Shown piece by piece: positions 5,795 through 31,927 of a stretch of 40,792 nucleotides of DNA; within the stretch, counting starts at the first letter, position 1; each line of letters opens with the position of its first letter. Below the pieces are notes generated by a model. It searched no databases and was not told the origin of the DNA. It saw only the letters and a list, made by a program, of their open reading frames with translations. This DNA is from Deltaproteobacteria bacterium. Its GTDB lineage: Bacteria; Myxococcota; XYA12-FULL-58-9. The stretch is taken from the NCBI GenBank assembly GCA_016218825.1, contig JACRCV010000088.1, positions 1-40,792 of the forward strand, given 5' to 3'. Position numbers and translations under genes: made by a program.

Positions 5795-6856
5795 TCACCA
5801 GACCCCCGCGAGCTCGACCCGATCGCGGCCGCCCTGCTTCGCCCGGTACAGGCACTTGTCGGCGTTGCCGTAGAGCTCGTCGGCGTTCTTGGCGTGCTCG
5901 GGGGCCGCGGCCACCCCGGCCGAGACCGTGGTGTGCAGGCCCTCGTTCTTCTGCAGCAAGCGCACGCGCTCCGCCAGCGTCCGCGCCCCGGCCGACTCGG
6001 TCTCCGGCAACAGCACCACGAACTCCTCGCCGCCGACGCGCGCCACCACCTCGGGCTTGCGGGTCGTGCTCCGCAGGATCTCCGCGAACCGCACCAGCAC
6101 CCGGTCGCCGATCACGTGCCCGTGGCGATCGTTGACGTCTTTGAAGTGATCGAGATCGAAGAGCACCAGCGCCGTCGGCCGGGCGTAGCGCAGCGCCCGC
6201 GCGATCTCGCGTTCGAGCTGCTCCTTGAAGTAGCGCCGGTTGAACAAGCCGGTCAGCGGATCGGTGCGCGCCAGCTGCGACACCTGATCGAGGGCCAGCT
6301 GCAGCTCGGAGTTGGCGGTCGACAGCTCCTGAGTGCGCTGCTCGACGACCTCTTCCAGGTGAACGTTGAGATCGCGCAGCTCGCCGAGCACCTGCTCCAG
6401 GCGGGTGTTCTTGTTCTGCAGCTCGACGACCAGCCGCGCCCGATCGCGGGCCAGCGTGGCGCGCTCGAGGCCTTGGCGCACCGTCAGCTTCAGATCCTGC
6501 GGCGAGATCGGCTTCGTCAGGTAGCGATAGATCTCGCCGCGGTTCACCGCCTCGATCAAGTCGGTGACGTCGGGGTAGCCGGTCAACACGATGCGGACGA
6601 TGTCGGGGTTGGTGTCGCGGGCGCGGGTGAGGAACTCGACCCCCTGCATGTTGGGCATGCGCTGGTCGGTGATGATCAGATCGACGTTGTGGGTCTGGAG
6701 CTGGATCAGGCCCTGCAGGCCGTCCGCCGCGGTCACCACGTTGTACTCGGTCTTCAACACCCGGAGCATGAACTCGAGGTTGTCGTTCTCGTCGTCGACC
6801 ACCAGCACGCAGGCCTTGGGGCCGCCGTCGGTGTAGTTGGGTTGGATGCTCGCCAT
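5795..6856 (-). CDS. Response regulator diguanylate cyclase (receiver-GGDEF)
   Basis: A 353-residue cytoplasmic protein that should make c-di-GMP from two GTP when its receiver is phosphorylated. The receiver (about 15-130) has the acidic pair D21/D22, phospho-acceptor D64 in LIITDQRMP and lysine in YLTKP. A coiled-coil linker (about 140-190) joins it to a GGDEF domain. GGEEF is at 275-279, an active-type signature. The allosteric I-site five residues upstream reads RKPE instead of RxxD, so product inhibition may be weakened. The ATG at 6856 follows GGGGACAGC in the gap after the lone receiver gene. It is the last gene of the three-gene operon 8955-5795. Confidence 0.93.
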   Translation of the reverse strand: MASIQPNYTDGGPKACVLVVDDENDNLEFMLRVLKTEYNVVTAADGLQGLIQLQTHNVDLIITDQRMPNMQGVEFLTRARDTNPDIVRIVLTGYPDVTDLIEAVNRGEIYRYLTKPISPQDLKLTVRQGLERATLARDRARLVVELQNKNTRLEQVLGELRDLNVHLEEVVEQRTQELSTANSELQLALDQVSQLARTDPLTGLFNRRYFKEQLEREIARALRYARPTALVLFDLDHFKDVNDRHGHVIGDRVLVRFAEILRSTTRKPEVVARVGGEEFVVLLPETESAGARTLAERVRLLQKNEGLHTTVSAGVAAAPEHAKNADELYGNADKCLYRAKQGGRDRVELAGVW

Positions 6857-6875
6857 GCTGTCCCCTTGTGGTTCG

Positions 6876-7271
6876 CTACTCGAAGCGTTTGGCCGCGGGC
6901 ACCAGCGCCAGCGCCCGCTCGACAACCTCGAGCAGGCGGGCGCCGGTCACCGGCTTTACCAGATAATGGTTGACCCGACAGACGTTGATCGCGCTCAGGA
7001 TCTCGGTGGTATCGGTATAGGCGCTGAGGATGATCTTGACCGCGCTCGGGTGGATCGCGAGCGAGCGCCGCAACAGCTCGGTGCCTGAGACCCGCGGCAT
7101 CCGCTGGTCGGTGATGATCACGTCGACCGCCTGCTTCTTCAGGAGCTCGATGGCCTCGTCACCATCTTGAGCGCGCACCGTGCGGTAGTGGTTGCGGAAG
7201 GTCCGCTCCATGAAGTCGAGGTTGTCGGGGTTGTCGTCGACGACCAGGACAACCCTATCAGTCTGTGTCAC
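6876..7271 (-). CDS. Single-domain response regulator
   Basis: A 131-residue stand-alone receiver. It has DD at 12-13, phospho-acceptor D55 in VIITDQRMP, the conserved Ser/Thr in ILSAYTD and lysine in YLVKP. It has no output domain, so it probably passes phosphate on or docks onto a partner. The GTG start at 7271 sits one base after the stop of the receiver-EAL gene, which fixes the start and shows tight coupling. Its sequence resembles the receivers on either side, which suggests duplication within the operon. The cognate kinase is not in the window. Confidence 0.88.
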   Translation of the reverse strand: MTQTDRVVLVVDDNPDNLDFMERTFRNHYRTVRAQDGDEAIELLKKQAVDVIITDQRMPRVSGTELLRRSLAIHPSAVKIILSAYTDTTEILSAINVCRVNHYLVKPVTGARLLEVVERALALVPAAKRFE

Positions 7272-7272
7272 G

Positions 7273-8955
7273 TCATGCCTCCGCCGGCGGCGCCGGTCGG
7301 CCGAGGAGATACCCTTGCGCCAGCTCGACACCCAGGACGCGCAAGCACTGGAGCTCGTCCTCGGTCTCGACTCCCTCAGCGATCACCTTGGCGTTCATAT
7401 CGTGGGCGAGCTGCAACAACGCTGTCAATAGGGCACGTTTCACGGGGTTGGTCTGGATCGCGGTGATGAGAGAGATGTCCACCTTCAGGTAGTGGGGCCG
7501 CAGCTGCTCGATGCGCTCCAGGCCGGAGTAGCCGGCGCCGACGTCGTCGATCGCCAGCTCGATGCCGAGCTCGGCGTAGGAGCGCAACAGCGGCACCAGC
7601 GTCGCGTTGTTCCGCACGCCGTAGTGCTCCGAGAGCTCGACCACGAGCCTCGAGGTCTCCAACCCCGCGCCCGCCATCGCCGCGGCGAGCCGCTCCGGCC
7701 GCAGGTCGGGGGCGTCGAGGGCCTGGGGCAGGACGTTGACGAACAGCTTGCCCTCCTTGGGCATCCGGGTCGCGAAGTGCAGCGCCTTGGTGCGAAACAC
7801 CCGGTCGAGCTCGACGGAGAGCCCGGTGCGCTCCGCGACCTTCAACAAGAACAGCGGCTGCTCGAACTGGGCGCCGGCCGGGCCGCGGCTCAAGGCCTCG
7901 TAGCCCAGACAGTCGAGGTTGGCGACCACGCGGATCGGCTGAAACACGGTGCGGATGTGGCCCTCGACGATGATCCTCTCCAGCTGGCTGCGACCGGAGA
8001 TGTTGTCGTCGGAGGTCAGCAGGTGGCGGGCGTTGTCGCGCGCCTCGCGCAAGGCGTTCCGCAGCTGGAAGGTGGGCGCGAGGTTCGGGTTGTGGAGCAC
8101 GAAGCCGTGGCCGACGGCGATGCGCGGCCACCAGGTGGTGCTCGGCCGGCGCATGCGCATCACCCGGTTGCCCAGGTCGTCCTGCAGGCGCCGCGCGACC
8201 CCTTCGACGTCGCGGGTGCAGCTCGCCGCCTCTTTGCGCGGCCGCGACAAGAACAGGCAGAAGATCGGGCTCTCGACCTCGTCGACCGCGAGCAGATCGG
8301 CGTCGCGCACCTGGCACCGGCACATCTCCTGGAGGGCGGCGACGAACTGGGCGCGGACGTCGGTGAACACCTCGGGGCCGTAGTCCGCCTGGACGTTCCA
8401 GAGCTCGCTGGCGTCGATGGCGGCGACGCCGAGGCAGCCGTCGCGCTGCAGCCAGGCGCCGACCTCGGCCTCGACCAGGTGCCGGGTCGGCAACGCGATC
8501 GCCTTGTCGAACACCAGCCGGTGGTAGCGATCGTGCTCGGCGTGCAGCCGCTGGCGGAGCTCGGAGAGCTCGACGATGTGGGTGACGACGCGGCGGAACT
8601 CGTCGCTCTTCCAGGGCTTGAGGATGTAAGCGTGGACCTTGCCCTCGTTGATCGCCGCTATCACCCGGTCCTGCGCCGCGTGGCCGGTGATCAGCACCCG
8701 CCCGACCTCGCGATCGTGCGCCGCCACCCGGGTCATGAATTCGAGGCCGTCGATCTCGGGCAGGGTCTGGTCGACGATCACCGCGCAGAAGCGCCGCTCG
8801 CGGACCAGGCGCAGACCCGCCTCGGGCGATGGCGTGGTCACGACCTCGTGGTCGTGACCCAAGAGGCGGTTGCAGAGGTCGAGGATCTCGGGCTCGTCGT
8901 CGACCACCAGTATCGCGGCTTTGCTCTGCTCTGGTGTCGCCGATGCGCTCGCCAC
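7273..8955 (-). CDS. Response regulator with degenerate GGDEF and EAL phosphodiesterase domain
   Basis: A 560-residue protein. The receiver (13-130) has D19/D20, phospho-acceptor D62 and lysine in YILKP. Residues about 145-310 look like a degraded GGDEF domain: ALPTRHLV and DASELWNVQADYG match the fold, but DEVESPIFCLF replaces the catalytic GGDEF. The EAL domain (about 322-555) keeps the expected metal and catalytic residues: EAL (353-355), the asparagine in VNVLP, ELSEH, DDVGAGYSG, KVD, AEGVET and QGY. It should hydrolyse c-di-GMP to pGpG. The GTG start at 8955 has GGAGG seven bases upstream. It is the first gene of the operon and is transcribed divergently from the sigma54 activator. Confidence 0.9.
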   Translation of the reverse strand: MASASATPEQSKAAILVVDDEPEILDLCNRLLGHDHEVVTTPSPEAGLRLVRERRFCAVIVDQTLPEIDGLEFMTRVAAHDREVGRVLITGHAAQDRVIAAINEGKVHAYILKPWKSDEFRRVVTHIVELSELRQRLHAEHDRYHRLVFDKAIALPTRHLVEAEVGAWLQRDGCLGVAAIDASELWNVQADYGPEVFTDVRAQFVAALQEMCRCQVRDADLLAVDEVESPIFCLFLSRPRKEAASCTRDVEGVARRLQDDLGNRVMRMRRPSTTWWPRIAVGHGFVLHNPNLAPTFQLRNALREARDNARHLLTSDDNISGRSQLERIIVEGHIRTVFQPIRVVANLDCLGYEALSRGPAGAQFEQPLFLLKVAERTGLSVELDRVFRTKALHFATRMPKEGKLFVNVLPQALDAPDLRPERLAAAMAGAGLETSRLVVELSEHYGVRNNATLVPLLRSYAELGIELAIDDVGAGYSGLERIEQLRPHYLKVDISLITAIQTNPVKRALLTALLQLAHDMNAKVIAEGVETEDELQCLRVLGVELAQGYLLGRPAPPAEA

Positions 8956-8998
8956 AAAACAACCTCCGACCGTAGCTTGCTACCAAAACTCCGGGGCG

Positions 8999-9027
8999 GC
9001 AATAACAGATAGAAAACCGTGTGGCAA
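8999..9027 (-). promoter_or_regulatory. Possible sigma70 promoter for the c-di-GMP operon
   Basis: On the minus strand TTGCCA (9027-9022) and TATTGC (9004-8999) are spaced by 17 bases, which would start transcription near 8992 and leave a 37-base leader. The -10 box is poor (three of six matches), so this is only a candidate. It lies in the 180-base divergent region shared with the sigma54 activator gene. Confidence 0.25.
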
Positions 9028-9135
9028 CCGAGAGATCCCCGGGGCGGACCCTCGAACGCGCCTGCCGGACCCGACGCTACAGTGGCCCGAACTCGGGCTT
9101 GCATTGCCCCAGGTCTCCCGGCAGAGTTGCACCCC

Positions 9136-10872
9136 ATGGGAACCGGGATGGGAGATCGTCCCTGGGTTCTCGCCGTCGACGACGAGCGCGAGAACCTGGA
9201 CTTGGTCGAGCGCGCGCTGCGCGGGGTCTGCAACGTCACCTGCTTCGATCGCCCGCGCGAGGCGCTGGACGCGATGGACGTGGGCCACTACGACCTCATC
9301 CTCGCCGACCAGAAGATGCCGGATGTCACCGGCGTCACGCTGCTCGAGCGAGCCCGCAGCAGCCAGCCGCGGGCTCGGCGGGTAATCCTCAGTGCTTTTG
9401 CGGACGTACCTGACCTTCTCCTCGCCATCAACCTCGGCCAGATCCACCGCTACATCCAGAAGCCCGTCCGTCCCGAGCAGTTGGTGGCCTGCGTGGAGGC
9501 CCTCACCGCGGGGACCACACGCGAACAGGGAGTGTGCGCTCTGGTGGTGGACGACCCCGCCCAAGCCCGAGACCTCTGCGAGCCGCTGGCCGCGGTCCTC
9601 GGGATGGCGGTGCGTCCGTGTACGGAGCTGGCGCCGGCCGCGAACCTGCGGCTGGCGTTGTTCCTCGACCGCTGTTCACCCCGAGACCTGGAGCCCATTG
9701 CCCGGGGGCTGGGTGGCGCCGACCGCGAGCTGGCGCTGTTCGTCACCGTTCCATCCGGCGCGGTCGAGGATGCGGCCGTGTACCTGAGGGCGGGCGCCGA
9801 CGACGTCATCTGGAGTCCGGTCAGTCCCGAGGAGGTCGCCTTGCGCTTCGGCACCTGGCGGGCCCGGCGCGACGCAGAGATCGAGGCCCGGCGGCTGCGG
9901 GCCGAGCTGCTTCGGGAACAACGCTTCTGCGACATCATCGGCCAGTCGGCGAGCATGCGCGCGGTGTTCGATCTGGTGGAGCGGGTGGGTCCGTCCGACA
10001 GCACGGTGTTGATCGACGGCGAGACCGGCAGCGGCAAGGAGCTCGTGGCTCGCGCCCTCCACGCGGTCAGCATGCGGCGGGAAAACGCCTTCGTGGCGGT
10101 CAACCTCTCTGCGCTGCCGGAGAGCCTGGTGGAGGCCGAGCTCTTCGGGCACGAGGCCGGCGCCTTCACCGGCGCCAGCGGCGTCCGCATCGGCCGCCTG
10201 GAGGCAGCCGACGGCGGGACGCTCTTCCTCGACGAGATCGGCGACCTCCCCATGGCGTTGCAGGTCAAGCTGCTGCGGGTGCTGGAGGACCGGTCCTACG
10301 AGCGCTTGGGCTCGTCTCGCACCCGAAGCGCCACGTTCCGCCTGGTGGGTGCCACGCACCGCGATCTCGATCAGATGGTCGCGGAGGGCACGTTCCGCGA
10401 GGATCTCTACTATCGGCTCAACGTGGTCCAGATAACCCTGCCGCCGCTGCGCGAGCGTCGCGAGGACATCGACCCCCTCGCCGAGTACTTCTTGCGGCGT
10501 TTCTGTGACCGCGCCGGTCTGCGGGAGGTCACGTTGAGCGAGGCGGCGCTCGCCGAGCTGCGCGAGCACGCCTGGCCCGGCAACGTACGCGAGCTGCAGC
10601 ACGTGATCGAGCGTGCCGTGGCGCTCAGCCGCGACGGCGAGACCATCGGCACCGGTTTGGTCCAGCCACGGGCGGCGCGCCGCACCTTCCGACTCATGGT
10701 GAACGATCCGTTGACCCAGGAGCGCGGTCTCGACGAGCTGGTGAACGACGTCGAGAAGATGGTCCTCACCGAGGCCATGCAGCGGTTCGCCGGCAACCAG
10801 ACCGCGGTGGCCCACAAGCTCAAGCTGCCGCGGGGGACCCTCCGCAGCCGCCTCAAGAAACACGGTCTCTGA
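9136..10872 (+). CDS. Sigma54 enhancer-binding protein with tandem receivers (NtrC family)
   Basis: A 578-residue activator of sigma54 RNA polymerase. The first receiver (8-125) has DD at 15-16, D58 in LILADQKMP and lysine in YIQKP. A second receiver-like domain (132-245) has LVVDD but SP where KP is expected, so it is probably non-catalytic. The AAA+ domain (about 264-505) has Walker A GETGSGKE (295-302), GAFTGA (342-347, the sigma54 contact loop), Walker B GTLFLDEIGD (361-370) and REDLYYRLNV. A Fis-type helix-turn-helix is at 550-575. The start is ATG 9136; ATG 9148 is an equally good alternative with GGGA upstream. Its likely targets are the palindromes and -24/-12 promoter immediately downstream at 10909-11033. 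Confidence 0.92.
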   Translation: MGTGMGDRPWVLAVDDERENLDLVERALRGVCNVTCFDRPREALDAMDVGHYDLILADQKMPDVTGVTLLERARSSQPRARRVILSAFADVPDLLLAINLGQIHRYIQKPVRPEQLVACVEALTAGTTREQGVCALVVDDPAQARDLCEPLAAVLGMAVRPCTELAPAANLRLALFLDRCSPRDLEPIARGLGGADRELALFVTVPSGAVEDAAVYLRAGADDVIWSPVSPEEVALRFGTWRARRDAEIEARRLRAELLREQRFCDIIGQSASMRAVFDLVERVGPSDSTVLIDGETGSGKELVARALHAVSMRRENAFVAVNLSALPESLVEAELFGHEAGAFTGASGVRIGRLEAADGGTLFLDEIGDLPMALQVKLLRVLEDRSYERLGSSRTRSATFRLVGATHRDLDQMVAEGTFREDLYYRLNVVQITLPPLRERREDIDPLAEYFLRRFCDRAGLREVTLSEAALAELREHAWPGNVRELQHVIERAVALSRDGETIGTGLVQPRAARRTFRLMVNDPLTQERGLDELVNDVEKMVLTEAMQRFAGNQTAVAHKLKLPRGTLRSRLKKHGL

Positions 10873-14515: not shown

Positions 14516-16870
14516 GTGCTCTGTTCACAGCGTGATTGGTATCTATATTACATCGGACCCGCGGCCTGTGTCCTGGCCGCGGCAGCTCCGCTTCGCGCCG
14601 AAGAGAACCACGCCGCGCCCGCCGCGGCGGACGTGGCGACCCCGGTGCCCTCCCCGACGCCCGCAGCAGAGCCGGCGCCGGCGCCGAGCGGTGCGGCCGA
14701 CGCACGCGGCGCGGAGGTCCCCGTCGAGCGCCGCGTCGAGCAAGTGGGCGAGGGCTCGGTTCAGTCTCGCCTCCAGGAGGTCTTCCGGCTGCTCAAGGAA
14801 GAGACCGAAGTCAAGGCCAGCATCGCGACCAAGACCGCCCAGAGCATCGACGACGCGCCCGCGATCATCGAGGTGATCTCGGCCCGTCAGATCCAGGACG
14901 CCGGGTTCACCAGCGTCGCCGAGGCCCTCGACACCGTCGTGGGGCTGGCGGTCAACACCGATCACGTCTACTACAACGTCGGCGTCCGGGGCACGAGCGG
15001 CGGCTTGCGCGGCGGCAGCCGGCACATCAAGATCCTGATCAACGGCCAACCCATCGCCTTCCGGCCCGACGCGCAGAACTTCCTCGGCCCGGAGATCATC
15101 CCGCTGCACGCGGTCTCCCGCATCGAGATCTTGCGCGGTCCCGCCTCGGCCCTCTACGGTTTGAACGCGTTCCTCGGGGTCATCAACATCGTCACCAAGG
15201 ACTCGACCGGGGCCCAAGGCGCGGCGGCGCACGAGTACCTCCTGAACCTGAACGGCGGCCGGCTGCACTCGGCCTATGGCGGCGGCGGTGAAGGTGTCGT
15301 GATGGACCGATTCGGTCCTCTCGCGGTGACGGTCGCGGCGCACTGGAATCGCGACGACCGCTCCGGGCTCGGACTCCCCGCGGGCTCACCGAACGCCAGT
15401 GACTACGCGGGCGACGTCAAGAGCGAGAAGGACATCGCGCAGCCGCTGTCGTTGTTTGGCTCCGTGTCCTACGACGCCGGCACGATCGGCACGTTCAGCC
15501 TGACGTCGAACTACCAAGAGCTCGACAGCATGGGCGAGTTCGTGGACGTCGGCGCCTTCAGCCACAAGACCCGCATCAACTTGAACAACTGGTACGCGCG
15601 CCTGAACCACAAGCTGCAGCTGTCGTTCCTGTCCCTGGCGACCTACGGCGCCTACGCGAGCGGCGGCTCCCTCGGCGACGACGTGCTGCAGCCGGTCCTG
15701 GACGGCAACGTGCTGAGCTACCGCGTCAACCGCGACTTCGGCTTCAACGCCGTGGACGCCGGCACCGAGGCGCAGATCAGCCTGTTCGACCGCAGCATGG
15801 TGCTCTTGGGCGTGGAGTACAGCGGCGATCAAGAGCGCATCCGTCAGAACACCTTCGTATCGAACGAGACCGGCGCCCAGACCAACGGGCCGGACTTCGG
15901 CACCAAGCCCTTCACGAACATGGCGGGCTACGTCCAGGGGCTGTGGCAGGAACTGGACTGGCTGCAGCTGTCGGCCAACTTCCGCGCCGATCGCAACAAC
16001 CAGTACGGGACCAACCTCAACTACAGAGGCGGCGCCGTTCTCGCGGTCGGGCCGGCGATTCGCATCAAGCTGCTCTCGGGATCTTCCTACCGCGCGCCGA
16101 CACCGGAGCAGCTCTTCGGCACGCCCATCGCCCCCGGGGACGTCCAGGGCTCGCTGTCGGCGGAGGAGAACCCGACACCGCTCGACCCGCAGTCGGCGAT
16201 GACCCACGAGGCGGCGATCAACTATCGGTTCCGGACGGCGTCCTGGAACTTCCGGGTTCGGGTCAACGGCTACATGACCACGATCAAGAAGCGCATCGAG
16301 TTCCTTCGCGATCGCGGCCAGTTCCGGCCGTTCAACGTCGCCGACTCGCGCACCTTGGGCGGCGAGCTCGGGCTGTATCTGCACCACAAGCGGGTCCTCG
16401 ACATGATGGCGGTGACCTTGTCGACCGGGTTCGCGTACGAGAACACCCAGATCGACCTCGACGAGAGCAGCCTGACGCCGCGCGAGGCCCGGCGCCTCAA
16501 GATCAACGAGCTCTTCCCGCCGTGGATGATCAAGAGCACCCTGCTCGTGGTCGTGCCGTCGCTCTACTTCAAGCTCCAGGCGCAATCGAACGTCTACGCC
16601 GAGCGCCTCGAGTCGCAGATCAACCAGACCTACGACCGGCCGTTCGTCGATTCGCCGCTGCGGTCGATCCCGGTGTCCTACCCGCTCGACGTCGCTATCT
16701 CGACGGCGGGCCTGAGCATCTTCGGCCGCGGCGAGGACAACAAGGAAACGACGGTGCAGCTCTCGCTCAAGGACGTCCTCAACACCCAGTCGCCGGAGCC
16801 GGGCTTCAACGGCATCAACCTGCCGCCCCTGGGTCGCAGAATCTTCCTGACCCTTCGCCAGATCTACTGA
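14516..16870 (+). CDS. TonB-dependent outer membrane receptor
   Basis: A 784-residue outer-membrane receptor that takes up a ligand with energy from TonB-ExbBD. The GTG start at 14516 has GAGGAG five bases upstream. A signal peptide ends near residue 28 (PLRAEEN), then comes a Pro/Ala-rich stretch to about 62. The plug domain (about 100-232) has SIDDAPAIIEVISARQIQ, the LRGPASALYGLNAFLGVINI motif and INGQPI. The rest is a beta-barrel with alternating aromatic strands ending in FLTLRQIY, a typical C-terminal aromatic signal. No clear TonB box is visible. The substrate is unknown. It is followed on the same strand by two binding lipoproteins, which could work with it. Confidence 0.9.
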   Translation: MLCSQRDWYLYYIGPAACVLAAAAPLRAEENHAAPAAADVATPVPSPTPAAEPAPAPSGAADARGAEVPVERRVEQVGEGSVQSRLQEVFRLLKEETEVKASIATKTAQSIDDAPAIIEVISARQIQDAGFTSVAEALDTVVGLAVNTDHVYYNVGVRGTSGGLRGGSRHIKILINGQPIAFRPDAQNFLGPEIIPLHAVSRIEILRGPASALYGLNAFLGVINIVTKDSTGAQGAAAHEYLLNLNGGRLHSAYGGGGEGVVMDRFGPLAVTVAAHWNRDDRSGLGLPAGSPNASDYAGDVKSEKDIAQPLSLFGSVSYDAGTIGTFSLTSNYQELDSMGEFVDVGAFSHKTRINLNNWYARLNHKLQLSFLSLATYGAYASGGSLGDDVLQPVLDGNVLSYRVNRDFGFNAVDAGTEAQISLFDRSMVLLGVEYSGDQERIRQNTFVSNETGAQTNGPDFGTKPFTNMAGYVQGLWQELDWLQLSANFRADRNNQYGTNLNYRGGAVLAVGPAIRIKLLSGSSYRAPTPEQLFGTPIAPGDVQGSLSAEENPTPLDPQSAMTHEAAINYRFRTASWNFRVRVNGYMTTIKKRIEFLRDRGQFRPFNVADSRTLGGELGLYLHHKRVLDMMAVTLSTGFAYENTQIDLDESSLTPREARRLKINELFPPWMIKSTLLVVVPSLYFKLQAQSNVYAERLESQINQTYDRPFVDSPLRSIPVSYPLDVAISTAGLSIFGRGEDNKETTVQLSLKDVLNTQSPEPGFNGINLPPLGRRIFLTLRQIY

Positions 16871-16882
16871 TGGCTGCTGGAG

Positions 16883-16911
16883 TTGCACGAGTATATTCCA
16901 TGTGCTATCAA
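16883..16911 (+). promoter_or_regulatory. Extended -10 promoter for the two binding lipoproteins
   Basis: TTGCAC (16883-16888), 17 bases, then TATCAA (16906-16911) with TG one base before the -10 (TGCTATCAA), an extended -10 arrangement. It would give a leader of about 140 bases for the gene at 17059. An apparent sigma54 site in the same place has the wrong spacing. Confidence 0.4.
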
Positions 16912-16990
16912 CCCGTTGAATCACGAATCACGGTCGCCGTCGTACCTGTTGAAGTCGACTCATCGGCGGACGTGGCCTTGTTCGAGGTTT

Positions 16991-17007
16991 TTCCGGCGCC
17001 GCCGGAA
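16991..17007 (+). promoter_or_regulatory. 17-base palindrome in the leader of the lipoprotein operon
   Basis: TTCCGGCGCCGCCGGAA is a perfect inverted repeat with 8-base arms around one central base. It lies in the predicted leader, 52 bases before the ATG at 17059. It could be an operator or a leader hairpin. It is not a terminator for the plus strand, because the T-run precedes it. Confidence 0.4.
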
Positions 17008-17058
17008 CGAGTGTGAGCTGAAACCTTGTGCCAAAAACAGTCCATGGAGGGACATCCA

Positions 17059-18552
17059 ATGAGGCAAGTCTGTGCGTGGCTCTTCTCTGTACCTGCAGCC
17101 CTGTTCCTGTCGCTGGCGGCCTGCACCAGCGATGATCCAGCCCCCGCCGGTGGCGATCCGGCCGGCGGCGACCCGGGGATCACCTGTAGCGCCAATACGA
17201 CCGACCCCGCGTTGAAGGTGGGCGGCATCTTCACGCTGACGACCGGCCCGAGCGCCAACGTCGAGAAGCTCGGCGCCATCGGGTTCGAGATGTTCATCGA
17301 CGAGGTCAACCGCAACTGCGGCACCGTCGGCACCGAGACCGGCGGCCTCAAGCTCGAGGGCGTCGAGAAGGACGGCAAGGATGACGGCCCCACGGCCGGC
17401 ACGGTCGCCGGGGAGCTCATCACCGAGGGCGTGGTCATGATGATCGGCGCGAGCGGCTCGTTGCCGACCACCGAGGCCGCCAAGCCCGCGGTCGCGGCCG
17501 GCAAGCTCTTCGGGTTGTGGAAGTCCGCCTCCGACCTCCTCCAGGGCTGCACCCAGGCGCAGCTGGACGACGCGGGTGTGACCAAGACCACGACGCCGGT
17601 GTTCGCGGCCAACCAGTGCTGGGACAACGGCCACTACGTGATGGGCAACCAGCTCACCTCCACCGGCTTCGGCAAGACCGCCGCCAAGTGGGTGAAGGCT
17701 GACCCGGTCTACTCCCTCTTGCTCAACGCCGCCGAGGTCTTCCGCAACGACGGCTTTGGCAAGCCCACCGAGGCCGCGTTCGCCGCGGCGTTCCCGACCG
17801 AGGGTGGGCGCACCGTCTCGGCGCGCGTGGTCTACCCGCCGAACGCGACCAAGGATCAGTTCAAGACCCTGATCAAGGACGGCAACCCGACGGCCACGCC
17901 GGCGGTCCCGGCCGTCGTCGTCGGCAACCCGCAGCTCATCGTGGTGACGACCCGCGTCGGCGAGTTCAAGGCGTTCCTCGAGGCCTGGGCCGAGCTCAGC
18001 GCCGACGCCACCTGGACGACGAAGCCCAGCAACTTCGACACCTGCCGCTTCATTGGCGTCGGCACGCTGAGCGACAACTACTCGAGCTTGAGCGCCAACG
18101 CCTTCGCCATCTGGCGGGATCGGGTCGTGGGCACCGAGCCCTACTACAACCCGACCGGCGTCGCCTACGAGAAGTTCTGGACCGCGTACCAGAACTACGA
18201 CCCGAGCGTCACCGAGGCCGACGCGTACTGGGAGAAGCCGGCCACCTACGACACCATGATGGTCTTGACGCTGGCGATGGTGAAGGCCAACAGCACCGAC
18301 TCGAGCGTGATCCGGGACGCGATCCAGGACGTCGCGAATCCCCCGGGGACCGTGGTCTACCCCGGAGAGTTCAAGAAGGCGCGGGCGTTGCTGTTCGCGG
18401 GTGAAGACATCGACTACGAAGGCGGCACCGGTCACGTGGACATCACCGACACCGGGTTCATCCGCTCGAAGGACTTCCGGGTTTGGGCGCCGAACGCCGA
18501 TGGCACGGTGAGCACCAAGGACGTCTTCGAGTCGGCGTATTCGGATCAATAG
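17059..18552 (+). CDS. Type-1 periplasmic-binding lipoprotein (branched-chain amino acid/amide family)
   Basis: A 497-residue exported protein of the LivJ/HAAT class. The lipobox LAAC gives a lipidated Cys at residue 22, followed by Thr at +2 and a Gly/Pro/Asp-rich tether. The mature part opens with VGGIFTLTTGPSANVEKLGA and has ELITEGVVMMIGASGSLPTTE, a typical lobe-one signature, and PYYNPTGVAYEKFWTAYQ near the end. The ATG at 17059 has GGAGGG seven bases upstream. It is followed after 34 bases by a second, larger lipoprotein of the same broad fold. No ABC permease or ATPase is present, so it is an orphan here: either a sensor, a partner of the TonB receptor upstream, or served by a permease elsewhere. 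Confidence 0.78.
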   Translation: MRQVCAWLFSVPAALFLSLAACTSDDPAPAGGDPAGGDPGITCSANTTDPALKVGGIFTLTTGPSANVEKLGAIGFEMFIDEVNRNCGTVGTETGGLKLEGVEKDGKDDGPTAGTVAGELITEGVVMMIGASGSLPTTEAAKPAVAAGKLFGLWKSASDLLQGCTQAQLDDAGVTKTTTPVFAANQCWDNGHYVMGNQLTSTGFGKTAAKWVKADPVYSLLLNAAEVFRNDGFGKPTEAAFAAAFPTEGGRTVSARVVYPPNATKDQFKTLIKDGNPTATPAVPAVVVGNPQLIVVTTRVGEFKAFLEAWAELSADATWTTKPSNFDTCRFIGVGTLSDNYSSLSANAFAIWRDRVVGTEPYYNPTGVAYEKFWTAYQNYDPSVTEADAYWEKPATYDTMMVLTLAMVKANSTDSSVIRDAIQDVANPPGTVVYPGEFKKARALLFAGEDIDYEGGTGHVDITDTGFIRSKDFRVWAPNADGTVSTKDVFESAYSDQ

Positions 18553-18586
18553 GTAGCGCCTCTACGAACAAAGGAAGCCCTGCTCC

Positions 18587-20491
18587 ATGCGCAGATCATG
18601 CTCGAGATTGTTGCTGGTAGGTTTTGCCGGCTTGGTCGTGTTCGGACAGGGCTGTACGAGCAGCGACGACGACAGCGTCGACGCCAGCTTACCGGAGTTC
18701 AAAGGGGAACCCCTCAAGGTGGGGGCCCTGCTGTGCGTGAGTAGCGCATTCGCAGCACGGGCCCCCAACCTCGAGCGGGCCGCGCTCTTGGCCGAGGACT
18801 ACATCAACGGCAGCACGCGCGCGTTTCCGGACGTGCCCGCCGATCAGATCCCTTGCCGGGTGATCAAGAACGCCGGCGAGCAGCATGCCTGCGGCGTGTG
18901 GGTCGGGGCCGACGCCGACGGCGCCGAGATCCGGGGACCGTTGAAGATCGTGGTGGCCGACAGCGAGGATCGGGTCGACCGAGGGGTCGCGGCGGCGCGG
19001 GCGTTGGTGGAGCAGCACGGCGTCAACACCATCGTCGGTCCCTGCAACGCCGAGGTCATGCAGGCGGTCTTCGATGAGGTGACCGGGACCCAGACCGTGC
19101 TGGTTTCTCCCACCGTCACCGCCGACAGCATCTCGATGCTCGGCGACCGCACCGCCGACGACATTGCCGGCGGTCTGTCGGGTTACGTCAACCGCACCAT
19201 CACCCCCGACTACATCCAAGCGCGGATGATGGCCCTGGTGGCCGGCAACCGGGTCAAGCCGGAGCCGATGATCCGTTGGGATGACCAGCTGCCCGACGAC
19301 TGCACCGAGCAACCCTCGAGCTACTGCCGCGCGACCTACAACGATCTCGGGATCTCGGGCGGTTGCATGCCCTCCGCGCACAACGCCCTGCCGGACAAGA
19401 TCTTCTTCCGCTACTCCGAGACCGACTGCGCCAACCAGGCAGACGGCGTCAAGTTCTGCGAAGAGAAAGAGGGCAAGAACTACGAGTGCCAGACCAACCC
19501 GGACAACGGCAAGCAAGTGTGCGCGCAGTGGAAGGAACGCAAGTGGTGCACCAAGGTCGTCAAGCCGCAGACCGCGATGTTGCTGTACCAGGACCGCCCG
19601 TTTGGCCAGGGCTTGCGCAACGTGCTCGTCAACGCCTGGGAGACCCTCTACGGCATGCACGTGCTGTCGTCGTTCGCGTATGACCCGAACGAGCCCAAGA
19701 CCTTCGGCAACGCCATCACCGAGCTGTTCACCAACGGCAGCACCCGCTTCGACGAGCTGAGCGCCGCGGGCAGCATCACCGACACCACGCTGCGCTTCGC
19801 CGACTCCGTGGTCTTCCTGTTGGCGGAGGCGACCGACGGCGCTCTGCTCCTGCAGGAGTGGAGCATCCGCGCCCCGACCCTCCCGGAAGGCACCCGCGAC
19901 GTCTTCTGGGTGGCACCGGATCCGGTCCGCAACTCGCTGCTCGTCAACCAGGTGAGCTTCGACACGGTCAAGAACCTCTTCGTGACCGATCCCGGAACCC
20001 TCGACATCAACAAGACCGCGTTCTTCGACGGCTTGTGGAACAAGCGCTGGAACGTGGCCGCGGGTGACTTCGTCGGCAACGTCTTCGACGCGGTGATCCT
20101 GAGCGCTCTGGCGCAGGAACGCGGCGGCTACTGGCGCATGGCCGCGTCACCGACCACGGCCCTCGGCCCCAACGACAGCGCCTCGGTGAAGGAAGCGATG
20201 CGGGACGTCTCCGCCGGCTGTCGCAAGGTGCAGATGTCCGACACCTGCGTCGACACCGTGACCCCCTTCGGTCCGGACCTGTACGCCGACGCCGTCCGGG
20301 CGGTGCGATCGGGCCAGGCGGTGCGGCAAGGCGGGGTGACGGGCGATCTGTCCTTGAGCCCGGCGGGCGACCGCCTGGCTGACTTCGCCGTGTGGCGCGT
20401 GATTCGCTCCGAAGACACGCCGGACCGGGCGGTCTTCTTCAGACACGGCAGCCTGGTGCCCGGGGCCCAAGGGATCGGTCTCGACTACTAG
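18587..20491 (+). CDS. Large periplasmic-binding-like lipoprotein with Cys-rich insertion
   Basis: A 634-residue lipoprotein (lipobox GQGC, Cys at 23, Thr at +2). The start LKVGALLCVSSAFAARAPN and VEQHGVNTIVGPCNAEVMQAVFDE match the first lobe of type-1 binding proteins, and FVGNVFDAVILSALAQ matches the second. Residues about 225-320 are an insertion with nine or ten cysteines, probably disulfide-bonded, unlike ordinary members of the family, which have about 350-420 residues. The ATG at 18587 has AAGGAAG upstream. It lies 34 bases after the related lipoprotein gene, so the two are an operon. The ligand cannot be told from sequence. Confidence 0.75.
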   Translation: MRRSCSRLLLVGFAGLVVFGQGCTSSDDDSVDASLPEFKGEPLKVGALLCVSSAFAARAPNLERAALLAEDYINGSTRAFPDVPADQIPCRVIKNAGEQHACGVWVGADADGAEIRGPLKIVVADSEDRVDRGVAAARALVEQHGVNTIVGPCNAEVMQAVFDEVTGTQTVLVSPTVTADSISMLGDRTADDIAGGLSGYVNRTITPDYIQARMMALVAGNRVKPEPMIRWDDQLPDDCTEQPSSYCRATYNDLGISGGCMPSAHNALPDKIFFRYSETDCANQADGVKFCEEKEGKNYECQTNPDNGKQVCAQWKERKWCTKVVKPQTAMLLYQDRPFGQGLRNVLVNAWETLYGMHVLSSFAYDPNEPKTFGNAITELFTNGSTRFDELSAAGSITDTTLRFADSVVFLLAEATDGALLLQEWSIRAPTLPEGTRDVFWVAPDPVRNSLLVNQVSFDTVKNLFVTDPGTLDINKTAFFDGLWNKRWNVAAGDFVGNVFDAVILSALAQERGGYWRMAASPTTALGPNDSASVKEAMRDVSAGCRKVQMSDTCVDTVTPFGPDLYADAVRAVRSGQAVRQGGVTGDLSLSPAGDRLADFAVWRVIRSEDTPDRAVFFRHGSLVPGAQGIGLDY

Positions 20492-20571: not shown

Positions 20572-20599
20572 TTGACCACACCTCGGGACTTGGTAGTAT
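20572..20599 (+). promoter_or_regulatory. Promoter giving a probable leaderless transcript
   Basis: TTGACC (20572-20577), 16 bases, TAGTAT (20594-20599). The -10 box ends eight bases before the ATG at 20608, so transcription would begin at or next to the start codon. No Shine-Dalgarno sequence precedes that ATG, which fits a leaderless mRNA. Confidence 0.45.
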
Positions 20600-20607: not shown

Positions 20608-21897
20608 ATGCCCAGTCACCCGCCGAGACCACTGCGCGCTGCCGATGATTCGAGCGCGCCTCCATCGTCACGACCGTCACCGGTGTCGAGCCAGGTGGAC
20701 CGACCCGGCACCCCGAGCAGACGCGACGCGCTCGCGGCGTCCATCGGCCTCGTTGGGCTGTTGGTCGGCGGCTGTGGCCGCCGCTTGATCGAAGGCCAGA
20801 CAGATGCCGTCACCAGTGCCTCTCCCGACGCGGTCACCGGCGCCAGCCAGGGAGGCGGGCCGCCCACGAATGTGGTCCAATTCGAGGAGGCCGCGCGCCG
20901 CCGCCTCCCGCGCAGCGTCTACGAGTACGTGCGGGGCGGCAAAGACGAGGAGGTCACGCTGCGGCGCAACCGCACCGCCTTCAACGAGCTGCAGCTCAAC
21001 CCGCGCGCCCTCAAGGACGTCCGCGCCATCGACACCACCCTGGAGCTCTTCGACGAGAAGCTGGATCTCCCCATCCTGCTCGCCCCCACCGGCTTCCACA
21101 GCTTCCTGCACAAGGACGCAGAGCTCGAGACCGCTCGCGGCGCCAACTTGAGTCGAACGCCGCTGGTAGTGAGCACCCTCAGCCACAAGAGCGTGCTGGA
21201 GATCGCCGAGGTGGCGAAAGCTCCGCTGTGGTTTCAACTGTACGCCCACGAGGACCGCGGTATCACCCGCGGCCTGGTGGAGCTGGGCGAAAGAGCGGGC
21301 TGCAAGGCCCTGGTCATCACGGTCGACAACCCCAGCCGCGGCACGGGCGCCTTCAAGAAGCGCGGCCTGACCCTGCCGATCCTCGGCAACCTGACCGCGC
21401 TCGGCGTCGACCCCAACAGCGACACCGCCAAGGCCTTCAGGACCGATCGCGCGCTCGATTGGGACGCCGTCGCCAGGATCGCCACCTGGACCAAGCTGCC
21501 CATCCTCCTCAAGGGCATCCTGGCCCCCCAGGACGCCGATCAGGCAGCCAGGTCCGGTTTTGTCGCCGGGGTGATCGTCTCCAACCACGGCGCCCGACAG
21601 GTCGACGCTCGACCGGCGACCGTCGAGGCGCTGCCCCGCGTCGTCGACTCGGTGGCCGGCAGAATTCCCCTGTTGGTCGACGGCGGCGTGCGCTACGGTA
21701 CCGACGTCGTGAAAGCCCTGGCCTTGGGCGCGCGTGCGGTTCTCATTGGCCGACCGTACCTCTGGGGGTTGAGCGTGGCCGGCGCCGACGGCATCGCCAC
21801 CATCGTCGAAACGCTGCGGGACGGCCTGGAGTTGGCGATGATGATGTGCGGCGTTACGAGCCTGCAGCAGCTCAACCGCGACGTGCTGTGGACATGA
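20608..21897 (+). CDS. Tat-exported FMN-dependent alpha-hydroxy-acid dehydrogenase/oxidase
   Basis: A 429-residue flavoenzyme of the glycolate oxidase/lactate dehydrogenase/mandelate dehydrogenase family, which oxidises L-2-hydroxy acids to 2-keto acids. The catalytic core starts near residue 88. Y105, Q210, Y212, D240, K302, H327 and R330 (in SNHGARQVD) match the FMN-binding and catalytic positions, so it should be active. Unlike most family members, it has a long N-terminus with SRRDALAAS (RR at 38-39), a hydrophobic stretch and VGGC (C56), a Tat signal with a lipobox. This predicts folded export with FMN and membrane anchoring. Whether oxygen, a quinone or a cytochrome takes the electrons is unknown. 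A DoxX-like membrane protein follows after 55 bases. Confidence 0.88.
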   Translation: MPSHPPRPLRAADDSSAPPSSRPSPVSSQVDRPGTPSRRDALAASIGLVGLLVGGCGRRLIEGQTDAVTSASPDAVTGASQGGGPPTNVVQFEEAARRRLPRSVYEYVRGGKDEEVTLRRNRTAFNELQLNPRALKDVRAIDTTLELFDEKLDLPILLAPTGFHSFLHKDAELETARGANLSRTPLVVSTLSHKSVLEIAEVAKAPLWFQLYAHEDRGITRGLVELGERAGCKALVITVDNPSRGTGAFKKRGLTLPILGNLTALGVDPNSDTAKAFRTDRALDWDAVARIATWTKLPILLKGILAPQDADQAARSGFVAGVIVSNHGARQVDARPATVEALPRVVDSVAGRIPLLVDGGVRYGTDVVKALALGARAVLIGRPYLWGLSVAGADGIATIVETLRDGLELAMMMCGVTSLQQLNRDVLWT

Positions 21898-26192: not shown

Positions 26193-28235
26193 CTAGTCAC
26201 ACATTCTGAGTAACGCCTTGCCGCCGGCCCGGGGGAACGCCCCGTAGGGCCGATCGGGCCAGGCCGTCTCTTGCAGCATGTACCGCCGCTTGCTACCGCC
26301 CTGCAACGCCGCCGCCGCCGTCGGCGCCGGCCACTGGACGCCGCGCAGGTAGCGCAGCTGGGCGTACGGCGACCGCCCGCCGTCGCGCTCGACCGCGAGC
26401 AAACCGCTCAGGTCGGCCACGCTCCCCTTCGACGCCTGCAGCAGGTCGCGAAACACCGCCTCGGGGTCGTAGCCGTTCGCCCGGCGCGGATACGGAAAGA
26501 GCTTGGCGCCGTCCTTGGCGAGCAGCGTCGCGAGCGCCAGGCCCATGTCGATGAACAGATCCAGCTCCGGCCTGCAGTCCGCGGCCGGCGCCGCGGCGCC
26601 CGCCGCACCCGCGTCCGTGCTCGCCGGCGAAGACCCGAGGCCGTCCGCGACCATCAGCCGGCGCTCGGCGTTCACCAGCACCCCACCCGGCCACTCACCC
26701 CACAGCGCCGCGGGAAAGACGACGTCGGCGTAGTCGAGCTCCGGGCTGTCTTCATAGCCGGCGCTGGCGACGACGAAGGTGGCCGCCGGTGGCGGCCACG
26801 GATGACGAGCGCTCGCCATGCCCGTGACGGCGGTCGCGCCGGTCAGCCACAGGCCCTTCACTTGGGTCTGACCCACCCGCTCCAGAAGGCTCGGCGTCTT
26901 CGGGCCCGGCTTGCAGCCGTCGCCGCCCGCCTCGAGCCCGGCATAGAACGGCAAGCGCCCGTGCTCACCCCCGGCCAGCTGCGCCGCGAAGTCGTCGGCG
27001 CGCGCCCCGATCCACAACGGTCCGGCCCCGACCCGGCCGAGATTACCGGTGAGCAGGTGCAAGTCGAGGATCGCGGTCGCCAACGCCGAGCCCGGCGCTG
27101 CGGCGCACAGGTCGCCGTCGCACCACAACGAGACGACCCCGCCCCGACCGCGCGCCGCGGCCTTCCGCGTCGCCGCCGCCCACTCCGCCGCCACCCGGGT
27201 CGCGAGCGCGACGTCGATGCCGCCCTGCCTTCCAGACTTCGCCGGGCTGTAGCGCTCGTCGAGCGCGGCGACGTACTCCGCAAAGCCTTCGACGTGCGCC
27301 GCCAGCCACGGCTTGGCGATGACGTCCTCGTGCAGGGTGACCATTAGGTAGGCGACGTAGCCCAAGAACCGGGCCGCGCCGCCGTCGGCCTCGAGCCTCA
27401 TGCTCGACGCCGGGTCCACGGCCGCAAACGCCTCGCCGGCCCTGCCGCGCCGAGGCTCCGCCACGAAGGTCGGGATCCCGGTGCGCTTCTTGTGGTCGAG
27501 CGCGCGCCAGAACAACACCGGGTAGGCCTCGGGCGCCGTGGCCCCGAAGACGCACAGGAGATCCGCCTGTTCGACGTCCTCGTAGGTGGCACACGGCGCG
27601 GCGGCGCCGAAGGCCTCGAGGTGCGCGGCGGCGCTCGCCGGCTCGCAGCCGTTCACTTCGACCGCCGTCGAGCCGAGGACCTCGCGCATCAACCGACCCT
27701 TGACGTAGTGGGCCTCGAGCGGCAGCGGCCCACCCGCGAGCATGCCGACGGCGTCGCCGCCGTGCGCCTTGACGATCGCCGCCAGCTTCTCCGACGTCAG
27801 GCGCAGCGCCTCGGCGTAGCTCACCTCTTGCCAAACCTCGGGCCCCTTCTGACCCTTGCTCGCCGCGCCGCGCCCCGAGAGCGGGTCGCTCAGGTCCCGG
27901 CGCACCAGACAGCGGCGCAGCCGCTCGCGGCCACCGCCCGCGAACGCCGACAGGCCCCTGGCGCACAGCGCCCCGCGGTTGACGCTGCTCTGTTGATCCG
28001 GGACGGTGCCGAGGATCGTCAGGCCCTCGGCCCTGAGGTGCAGCGCGCAGCCGACGCCGCAGTGCGGGCAGGAGGCGAGGAGCGCCCGCTCCCCGGGGGC
28101 CAACACCGGCGACGCCGCCCGCGGCGCCGTCGGGTCCGGGATCGCGTCGCGCCGACAACCCGCCAGGCAGCCCGCGAGCGTCAGCCCGGAGGCGCCGGAC
28201 AGCTTGAGGAAGTCACGCCGATCAAGCTCGCGCAT
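26193..28235 (-). CDS. NapA-like molybdopterin oxidoreductase lacking the C-terminal pterin-binding domain
   Basis: A 680-residue exported protein with a Tat signal (DRRDFLKLSG, residues 5-14) and two overlapping lipoboxes (LAGC at C23 and C27). The [4Fe-4S] motif is intact (C56, C59, C63, C91). The core follows periplasmic nitrate reductase: VNGCEPASA keeps a Cys (C197) near the Mo-ligand position, and YEDVEQADLLCVFGATAPEAYPVLF and VSLWCDGD align. The NapA cofactor loop (GQPNAxGG) reads GARADDFAAQ here. The sequence ends at YGAFPRAGGKALLRMCD, exactly where NapA would begin its MopB_CT dinucleotide-binding domain. No frameshift remnant follows, since the PilZ gene starts 38 bases on. It may be an electron-transfer relative without Mo. 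The ATG at 28235 is 23 bases after the cytochrome gene. Confidence 0.82.
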   Translation of the reverse strand: MRELDRRDFLKLSGASGLTLAGCLAGCRRDAIPDPTAPRAASPVLAPGERALLASCPHCGVGCALHLRAEGLTILGTVPDQQSSVNRGALCARGLSAFAGGGRERLRRCLVRRDLSDPLSGRGAASKGQKGPEVWQEVSYAEALRLTSEKLAAIVKAHGGDAVGMLAGGPLPLEAHYVKGRLMREVLGSTAVEVNGCEPASAAAHLEAFGAAAPCATYEDVEQADLLCVFGATAPEAYPVLFWRALDHKKRTGIPTFVAEPRRGRAGEAFAAVDPASSMRLEADGGAARFLGYVAYLMVTLHEDVIAKPWLAAHVEGFAEYVAALDERYSPAKSGRQGGIDVALATRVAAEWAAATRKAAARGRGGVVSLWCDGDLCAAAPGSALATAILDLHLLTGNLGRVGAGPLWIGARADDFAAQLAGGEHGRLPFYAGLEAGGDGCKPGPKTPSLLERVGQTQVKGLWLTGATAVTGMASARHPWPPPAATFVVASAGYEDSPELDYADVVFPAALWGEWPGGVLVNAERRLMVADGLGSSPASTDAGAAGAAAPAADCRPELDLFIDMGLALATLLAKDGAKLFPYPRRANGYDPEAVFRDLLQASKGSVADLSGLLAVERDGGRSPYAQLRYLRGVQWPAPTAAAALQGGSKRRYMLQETAWPDRPYGAFPRAGGKALLRMCD

Positions 28236-28258
28236 CGTTCCCTCCGGGCGACGCCCGC

Positions 28259-30394: not shown

Positions 30395-30395
30395 G

Positions 30396-31142
30396 TCAGT
30401 AGTAGACCCCGTCCACCCACGGCAGGGTCAAAGACCAGCTCGGGCCGCGGAAGAAGATGCCAATCATCGTCAGCGTCACGGCCACGACCACGAACCAGAC
30501 GAAGATCCAAAACGCCAGGCTGCGCGTCGACAGCCACCCCAGCACCCCCCGCTCGCCGCCGATGAGCCCCGGCAACAGCGCCAGGCCGCCGACCGCCAGG
30601 GTGGGTCCGATGATCGGCCAGACCGGCGAGGCGCCCGAGACGTAGAACAACGCCGCGACCGCGATGATCGCCGCCGTGAGCCGCACCAGCTTCTGCCGCC
30701 GGTCGGTCGCCCACAGCGGCGCCCGGGTCAGGTTGACGTTGAAGTACGGCACCACCGCCAGCGCCAGGATGGTCAGGCCCGGCAAGATGATGCCGGAGAC
30801 CAGCGGCGGGTAGTAGTGCAGCAGCTCCTGGAGCCCCAGGAAGTACCACGGCGCCTTCGCGGGGTTCGGGGTGGCGAGCGGGTTCGCGATCTCCTCGAGC
30901 GGCGCGTTGGCGAAGATCGACCAGACGACCAGGCCGAGCGTCAGAGCGACGAGGGCGATCGCCTCCCGCACCACCAGGTGCGGAAAGGTCATCACCATGT
31001 CCTCCTCGAAGACGTCCACCGCCGGACGCGCCTCTTCCTGCACCACCAGGAGCCGGCGCGGCCGCGGGTCGCTCTTGCGCCTGCCGGAACGAGCGTCGCG
31101 GATGTCCTCGCCTTTGACGAGCTCGTAGTCGCGGGGGCTCAC
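30396..31142 (-). CDS. Cytochrome b C-terminal half (subunit IV-like)
   Basis: A 248-residue membrane protein with four predicted helices and a charged N-terminal extension of about 60 residues ([12 protein letters not shown]). It corresponds to the C-terminal half of cytochrome b, as PetD does in b6f. The Qo-site motif, normally PEWY, reads APWY in [18 protein letters not shown]. The first helix starts at [12 protein letters not shown], and the end is [14 protein letters not shown]. The GTG start at 31142 overlaps the stop of the cytochrome b N-terminal gene by four bases (GTGA), which fixes the start. Together they make a split cytochrome b. Confidence 0.88.
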
Positions 31143-31927
31143 GGTGTTGGCTCCCCGTCCACGACCCGCGTCGCCCGACCCGTCGCTTCGGGCGGCAGGT
31201 AGATGCCGCCGTCCTTGCGCACCCGCCACAGGTGCACCGCGAAGAGCCCGGTGAGGACGAGCGGCAGCACCACGCAGTGCAGCACGTAGAAGCGCAGCAG
31301 GGTGTTCTCGTCGATCTGATTGCCGCCGAGCAGCAGGAACGAGATGTCACCACCGACGAGCGGCACCGCGGCGGCGAGGCTCGTGCCGATGGTCACCGCC
31401 CAATACGCCAGCTGGTCCCACGGCAGCAAATAGCCGGTGTAGCTCAGGAACACGGTGGCGACGAGCAGCAGCACCCCCAGCACCCAGTTGAACTCGCGCG
31501 GCGGCCGATAGGCGCCCGCCAAGAACACCCGCGCCATGTGCAAGAACACCGCCGCCACCATCGCGTGCGCCGCCCAGCGATGCACGTTGCGCAGGATGAC
31601 CCCGGCGGTGACGACGAACTCGAGGTCCTTGACGTCGGCGTAGGCGCGCGGCACCGACGGGTGGTAATAGAACATCACCGCGACCCCGGTCACCGTGAGG
31701 ATCACGAACAACGCCGCAGCGAGCCCGCCGAGATAGAAGGTGCGCGTGAAGCGAATGGCCTCGACGCGGACCTTCACCGGATGGACGTGGAGGAAGAGGT
31801 TGGAGAACACCGCCAGGGAGCGATTGCGGTTGGTGTCGGGAAACCCGTGGCGGACGATCGAGCGCCACACCCGTCGTCCGAAGCCCCCAGGCCGCGCCGC
31901 GGTGCTGAAGACCTCGCCGCTCACCAT
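31139..31927 (-). CDS. Cytochrome b N-terminal half (b6-like)
   Basis: A 262-residue membrane protein holding the two b haems of a Rieske/cytochrome b complex. Histidine pairs are H-x13-H (NVHRW to FLHMARVF) and H-x14-H (VLHCVV to AVHLWR); the second spacing is of b6 type. [14 protein letters not shown] is the conserved loop. The Cys that attaches the extra haem c in b6 (in FYCLGG) is missing; the protein reads TFYLGG. The ATG at 31927 overlaps the Rieske stop by one base. With the next gene it forms the quinol-oxidising membrane core. Confidence 0.92.

Follow-up and report, generated by a model that had tools for sequence, protein, structure and literature searches.

A stretch of 40,792 nt from a Myxococcota genome (contig JACRCV010000088.1 of GenBank assembly GCA_016218825.1; hereafter the window) carries a gene for a TonB-dependent receptor (TBDR) followed by two genes, L1 and L2, for predicted lipoproteins of the LIV-type periplasmic-binding fold. 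We favour, with moderate confidence, the interpretation that the receptor and the lipoproteins form one outer-membrane ligand-capture unit that does not feed an ATP-binding cassette (ABC) importer; the binding proteins probably work with the receptor, in place of a pump. This interpretation is based on the recurrence of the pairing in several phyla, on the congruence of the receptor and lipoprotein trees and on the absence of LIV-type permeases.

In the proposed mechanism, L1 and L2 would have descended from LIV-type substrate-binding proteins and would be lipid-anchored, most likely in the outer membrane, where they would serve the TBDR without an ABC permease. They may bind a small ligand at the receptor, perhaps amino-acid-like or another carboxylate, and TonB would drive this ligand through the TBDR into the periplasm. 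In many relatives, ligand entry is probably also read as a signal, because the unit there adjoins genes for YfiR, a CHASE8 histidine kinase and sometimes a GGDEF response regulator. The genome of the window lacks YfiR and CHASE8, which would leave uptake, or sensing by an unlinked protein.

Receptor and lipoprotein genes of the window

The assembly that holds the window comprises 6.5 Mb in 121 contigs and is 96.5% complete. The gene order is TBDR-L1-L2, with all three genes on the forward strand. The TBDR gene (14516-16870; 784 aa) has a GTG start with GAGGAG upstream, and its product matches Pfam Plug (E=4e-18). L1 (17059-18552; 497 aa) matches Peripla_BP_6 (E=3e-11) and ANF_receptor (E=2e-6); its likely start is the ATG at 17059, with GGAGGG 7 nt before it, the TTG at 17026 that opens the listed frame being less likely. 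L2 (18587-20491; ATG at 18587, 634 aa) encodes a second predicted lipoprotein of the same fold (Peripla_BP_6, E=7e-12).

AlphaFold2 models built from alignments with relatives reached a pLDDT of 82.7 and a pTM of 0.82 for L1, and 72.2 and 0.74 for L2, in which residues 223-298 form a Cys-containing stretch of low model confidence. With both models as queries, Foldseek placed 3td9 (LivK) on top (E 3.6e-17 for L1 and 4.7e-18 for L2), with LIV-type binding proteins and the ectodomains of class C receptors ranking next. As modelled, both proteins have the two-lobed LIV-type fold. The preliminary description of this DNA had proposed a TBDR followed by two binding-protein-fold lipoproteins. Pfam matches, signal sequences and the AlphaFold2/Foldseek results bear this out, with the start of L1 moved to ATG 17059.

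Conserved pairing and absence of a LIV-type permease

We searched 146 relatives with both lipoproteins. L1 gave matches in 20 genomes, its own included. L2 gave matches in 13, those outside its own genome being only weak local ones (12, best E 1e-4), and the related-locus search with L2 confirmed no relative. Among 27 stretches around L1 or L2 matches, eight also hold a relative of the window TBDR (E 1e-57 or better). In all eight, a LIV-type gene lies directly beside the TBDR on the same strand, downstream in seven and upstream in one.

A TBDR subfamily model, A2, was built from the window TBDR and eight relatives chosen for their adjacent LIV-type gene, and these nine rows were counted apart from all other members. 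The window TBDR is 28-32% identical to the eight other rows and scores 926 bits against the model, of which it is itself a row. Bit-score cut-offs were set after a gap in the scores was seen. In a scan of 195 Myxococcota genomes, in which members may be missed as at most five candidates were scored per genome, 31 places reached 240 bits or more and the next stood at 226. Nine of the 31 were model rows; the other 22 comprised four cut by contig ends (G160, G029, G003 and one half of G179; G, L and C numbers denote genomes, loci and contigs) and 18 that could be judged. A LIV-type gene lay within about 2.5 kb on the same strand in 17 of the 18. In 16 it was next to the TBDR or, in the congener G001, behind one further binding-protein gene, and in G138 it was ~2.5 kb downstream. 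The place without a LIV-type gene (G007:C61) is a TBDR fragment whose upstream side is missing.

We also surveyed named contigs with A2, using the best 80 of at least 557 confirmed relatives. The scores split into 34 TBDRs at or above 430 bits and 45 at or below 235, with one fragment between. A LIV-type gene was found within 500 nt of 33 of the 34 subfamily TBDRs (32 on the same strand) versus none of the 45 more distant TBDRs (Fisher p about 2e-21, uncorrected for relatedness), although the flanks of several low-scoring loci are short, so that a neighbour was less likely to be seen there. Without L145 and L152, which repeat model rows, the tally is 31 of 32; L134, L158 and L139 are duplicates of loci from the Myxococcota scan. 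In Sorangium (L153) two LIV-type genes lie on the other strand from the TBDR. The single exception (L159:633-2747, from a Mcinerneyibacteriota metagenome-assembled genome) has no binding-protein gene in 5 kb downstream, and only ~0.6 kb upstream is covered. The 33 paired loci come from Myxococcota, 'Deltaproteobacteria', beta- and gammaproteobacteria (Rugamonas, Pseudoduganella, Paucibacter and Venteria among them), Bacteroidales/Bacteroidetes, Oligoflexia and Sericytochromatia. The window fits the definition of the subfamily, that is, the upper mode of A2 scores together with an adjacent Peripla_BP_6 gene (L1).

The presence of two binding proteins beside one receptor recurs, the second partner varying from locus to locus, and the window belongs to this group. 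The second partner is of Bmp/PnrA type in G119, G009 and G024, SBP_bac_3 in G004 and Peripla_BP_4 in L157, and two LIV-type genes are present in G179, G004 and Sorangium. Searches of the window's own genome for Peripla_BP_4 and Bmp found no match for either. Binding proteins of another family were seen beside other TBDRs: at L099:2678-5212 (G192) the TBDR has a methyl-accepting chemotaxis protein and a PF04392 (ABC_sub_bind) protein beside it, and another PF04392 protein stands beside a lower-scoring TBDR in L123.

The TBDR and LIV-type lipoprotein genes evolve together. Their distance matrices gave a Mantel r of 0.757, which none of 2000 permutations reached (n=48 pairs, 2 of 50 being too short), and species phylogeny could give part of this correlation. 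The trees left out repeats (L134, L158, L139, L145 and L152), loci that were cut or lacked a partner (L155, L135 and L159), L114, L117 and cut loci. Genomes carrying more than one module supplied ten modules, and for eight of these both trees gave the same closest module from a different genome, as for G181a-G092, G181b-G162b, and G140b and G140c with G138. G004c and G162a disagree between the trees; G004c has two LIV-type genes, of which the one with the higher score, lying on the other strand, had been used. Together with the tally of 33 of 34 versus 0 of 45, the tree congruence leads us to reject a chance neighbourhood. The idea that the lipoproteins work with the receptor thus has strong comparative support from conserved adjacency and tree congruence.

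PF02653 is the permease family used by LIV-type and Bmp-type (also ribose-type) binding proteins. It had no match in the whole assembly of the window, whereas 12 of 14 control genomes matched. It is wholly absent from four of the 20 module genomes, namely that of the window, G001 (86% complete), G009 (97%) and G044 (70%). A local model of the LIV-type permease, made from eight fetched loci, found none in 65 module loci (808 kb, with five repeats and some cut contigs); it matched nine of nine controls, of which eight had supplied the model and only L061 was independent. A model made from four ATPases gave two hits; judged from sequence, the one in L110 is an ABC-F-like protein and the one in L045 a peptidase-type exporter. 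The claim that no ABC permease is present therefore holds, as none is linked in the window and PF02653 is absent from the genome. A linked ABC permease in relatives, which would speak against joint work with the receptor, was looked for, and the 65 module loci contained no LIV-type permease. Given the absence of PF02653 from the genome and of LIV-type permeases from these loci, we reject a standard ABC importer with a linked permease. For contrast, L061:9647-14087 shows an ordinary ABC arrangement, in which a LIV-type protein of Myxococcota without an evident lipobox shares its stretch with LIV-type permease and ATPase hits.

Signalling neighbours

Genes for signal transduction are frequent beside the subfamily. 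Of the 34 subfamily loci, 14 have YfiR at a distance of up to 3.5 kb, 19 have a hit of a local CHASE8-kinase model at up to 6 kb, and 13 have both. We assigned Pfam families to 139 neighbour genes from 27 loci (L155, L134, L158, L139, L145 and L152 were left out, L156 gave none and 2 of 141 genes were dropped). Signalling families were the commonest: Response_reg occurred 24 times, HATPase_c 19, HAMP 17, YfiR 16, HisKA 15, CHASE8 15, GGDEF 7, Hpt 5 and MCP 3. OmpA (9), DXP synthase (8) and radical SAM (6) were also present, and the Bacteroidales locus L133 has all three. No permease family was among the 25 families listed, out of 127, from these genes.

The arrangement of the signalling genes recurs as well. 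In L130, L144, L146 and L163, genes for YfiR, a sensor kinase and a receiver-GGDEF protein are divergent from the TBDR (YfiR and the L146 kinase were assigned by local models, CHASE8 in the other three kinases and GGDEF by Pfam). Five genomes of genus g45 (L044, L045, L047, L052 and L097) have YfiR and the same kinase divergent to the TBDR, Pfam having been applied to L047 alone. Six Bacteroidales loci (L132, L133, L136, L138, L140 and L161) share the order TBDR, lipoprotein, YfiR and kinase (Pfam on L133).

These neighbours point to a mainly sensory role, which we regard as a serious but tentative alternative. The TBDR would admit the ligand, and a LIV-type lipoprotein on the periplasmic side of the outer membrane would bind it and report to YfiR and the CHASE8 kinase, with cyclic di-GMP (c-di-GMP) or a phosphorelay as output and feeding as a secondary function. 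The window itself carries genes for receiver-GGDEF, receiver-EAL and receiver-sigma54-activator proteins (Pfam) and a receiver-like gene (judged from sequence) at 5798-10869, which favours this role; however, two other genes, one of them a fumarase gene, separate this cluster from the TBDR. The genome of the window has no match to PF13689 (YfiR) or PF17152 (CHASE8), and the modules of G004 and G007, which belong to the same order, showed neither gene alongside, so that sensory input in the window would need another, unlinked sensor protein. Moreover, TBDRs without a lipoprotein are also found near YfiR (9 of 45) and kinases (17 of 45), so these genes may belong to TBDRs more generally. In its broadest form, the sensory role would make the module a TonB-dependent outer-membrane chemoreceptor, in which a TBDR and a re-purposed LIV-type lipoprotein, or several lipoproteins of different folds, jointly serve as the extracytoplasmic receptor of a YfiR/CHASE8-kinase/GGDEF pathway in many phyla, with uptake or unlinked sensing where the kinase is absent, as in the lineage of the window. 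We give this form, too, somewhat less than even weight.

Other genes of the window have predicted redox functions. An FMN-dependent 2-hydroxyacid dehydrogenase gene (20608-21897, +; PF01070, E 8e-111) follows L2. It was rejected as a member of the operon, with 116 nt and a promoter-like site at 20572-20599 (one found, 0.4 expected) intervening. The N-terminus of its product carries a twin-arginine-like motif and a lipobox-like VGGC, as in an apparently exported hydroxyacid oxidase. A gene run at 26193-34308 (-) includes a molybdopterin oxidoreductase with a weak match to a twin-arginine translocation signal and a cytochrome c protein with several heme domains.

Membrane location, ligand and relation to known systems

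L1 has a canonical lipobox (LAA^C) with the candidate lipid-bearing Cys22 at 17122-17124 (+; LSLAA^CTSDDPA), giving a predicted mature start of CTSDDPA. In L2 the candidate is Cys23 at 18653-18655 (+; VFGQG^CTSSDDD), with a relaxed lipobox (GQG^C) after a hydrophobic stretch and a mature start of CTSSDDD. A Cys after an N-terminal hydrophobic stretch was found in all 33 LIV-type partners whose N-terminus could be read (from 32 loci, L155 being cut), a lenient count as the scan sought precisely such a Cys; a stricter lipobox pattern matched 19 of the 33.

It had been argued from the Escherichia coli sorting rule that the absence of Asp at position +2 makes an outer-membrane location plausible. 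Position +2 is indeed Thr in both L1 and L2, and we consider the outer membrane their likely location, although the rule is that of E. coli and may not hold in this lineage. In Myxococcus xanthus, different marks are published, Lys(+2) for inner-membrane and Ala(+7) for matrix lipoproteins, with no mark of outer-membrane location (PMC3222651). Lys(+2) is absent from both L1 and L2. Ala(+7) of L1 fits the matrix rule; it is the sole case in 17 Myxococcota rows, hence we did not use it. The tally of positions +2 and +7 covered 34 rows in three groups, partners of other groups being left out. None of the nine beta- and gammaproteobacterial partners has Asp(+2). Position +2 is Gly in seven and Ser in two, and we predict an outer-membrane location for these nine since the Asp(+2) rule is likeliest to hold there. 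LolA and TonB are both encoded in the genome of the window.

In LIV-binding proteins, the carboxylate of the amino acid is held by Ser79 and Thr102. In the corresponding pocket columns of 30 aligned proteins (L1 included), Ser occurs in 24 at one and Thr or Ser in 26 at the other. L1 has Ser at one column, Ala at the other and Ser in the next column, and L2, in its own alignment, has Ala and Thr. Because each window protein keeps just one of these two pocket hydroxyls, the ligand class is only a guess: from these residues it may be amino-acid-like or another small carboxylate, which is a better guess for the subfamily than for L1 and L2.

Several observations weigh against a single ligand-capture unit of receptor and lipoproteins. 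In most relatives the genes overlap or abut, whereas the TBDR gene and L1 are more loosely spaced, with a gap of 188 nt that contains a weak terminator-like site at 16967-16984 (the region has 7 such sites versus 3.9 expected). The relaxed lipobox makes lipidation of L2 less sure than that of L1. Lys(+2), which in M. xanthus indicates the inner membrane, occurs in the partner from G108, and Asp(+2) occurs in L134 and in two Bacteroidales partners (L135 and L161). L1 and L2 each lack one of the two LIV pocket hydroxyls, and the need of a TBDR for a small ligand is not obvious. Finally, the congener G001 has the order TBDR-Bmp-Peripla_BP_6 instead, and L2 has no match there.

A related alternative, which we regard as possible but doubtful, is that L1 and L2 sit on the outer face as a SusCD-like lid and hand the ligand to the TBDR pore, as convergent analogues of SusD or BtuG. 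Besides the pairing with the TBDR and the lack of Asp(+2) in the window, several loci encode two binding proteins for one receptor, reminiscent of SusC with its multiple binding proteins at the surface. The Asp-rich mature N-termini (CTSDD and CTSSDDD) resemble the surface signal of Bacteroidetes, and the mature start of the eight Bacteroidales partners reads C-E/D-x-L/F-x-E-D. However, the acidic pair of the latter is at +6/+7, whereas the Bacteroidetes signal has it at +3/+4 or +4/+5, the position being critical in Capnocytophaga (PMC5080379); nor is this signal known to act in Myxococcota. Sensing and surface capture for uptake are not exclusive, and the weights that we give to these two and to the ligand-capture unit overlap and do not sum to one.

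The SusCD-like layout suggested in the preliminary description stands in so far as a lipoprotein gene lies next to the TBDR gene, in the window as in 33 of 34 loci; the SusD family and the SusC extension were not matched. SusC-type TBDRs carry an N-terminal CarboxypepD_reg-like extension. In the window TBDR, Pfam gave Plug only, and no SusC-type model was among the 25 of 30 NCBIfam families listed. Membership of L1 and L2 in SusD was rejected, as they match Peripla_BP_6/ANF_receptor and no SusD model in Pfam. The window thus resembles SusCD and BtuB-BtuG of Bacteroidota in having a TBDR gene beside a gene for a lipid-anchored ligand-binding protein, with probable joint work at the outer membrane. 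Unlike these, its lipoproteins have a predicted LIV-type fold, the pairing occurs in Myxococcota, Pseudomonadota, Bacteroidales and other groups, and the surface position is hypothetical.

The LIV/HAAT ABC importers (LivJ/LivK, PF13458) share the fold and the sequence family, and the pocket hydroxyls are kept in most subfamily partners. They differ in that L1 and L2 have a predicted lipid anchor and are paired with a TBDR, with no linked LIV-type permease and no PF02653 in the genome. That L1 and L2 are ordinary ABC substrate-binding lipoproteins, beside the TBDR by chance and with a permease encoded elsewhere, fits their family and fold and could involve a permease from a different family or one encoded in the 3.5% that the assembly lacks, but is very improbable given the absence of PF02653 here and in three other module genomes (two of them incomplete, 86% and 70%) and the pairing and co-evolution with the TBDR across phyla.

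LpoA is an outer-membrane lipoprotein with a periplasmic-binding-protein-type fold and TPR repeats that activates a peptidoglycan synthase. It offers a parallel for the same fold in an outer-membrane lipoprotein without an ABC permease. L1 and L2 had no TPR match, and membership in LpoA was rejected. A 733-aa protein on C98 of the same genome (L040:9028-11226), the only other Peripla_BP_6 protein found there, also has a weak TPR match below the cut-off and is a better LpoA-like candidate.

The YfiBNR system provides a third comparison, since the TBDR-lipoprotein pair of many relatives adjoins YfiR and a CHASE8 sensor. YfiN itself carries GGDEF. In contrast, the scanned CHASE8 proteins are histidine kinases, with a separate receiver-GGDEF gene in some loci, and the genome of the window has neither YfiR nor CHASE8.

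To our knowledge, few accessory lipoproteins of TBDRs have a known fold (SusD, BtuG, TbpB and similar). Among the papers listed in literature searches, which mostly did not extend to subscription papers, none describes, as judged by title and opening of the abstract, a TBDR whose partners are LIV-type lipoproteins or YfiR and a CHASE8 kinase. The subfamily described here, with its LIV-type lipoproteins, adds to the known TBDRs with accessory lipoproteins. If the conserved multi-phylum pairing without an importer is true, many proteins annotated as substrate-binding components of ABC importers would not in fact serve ABC transporters. With YfiR, CHASE8 kinases and GGDEF proteins as neighbours, a path from a receptor in the outer membrane to c-di-GMP could be tested, in Rugamonas rubra or Archangium lansinium for example, and the chemoreceptor, if true, would represent a new type of sensory input for bacteria, beginning at the outer membrane.

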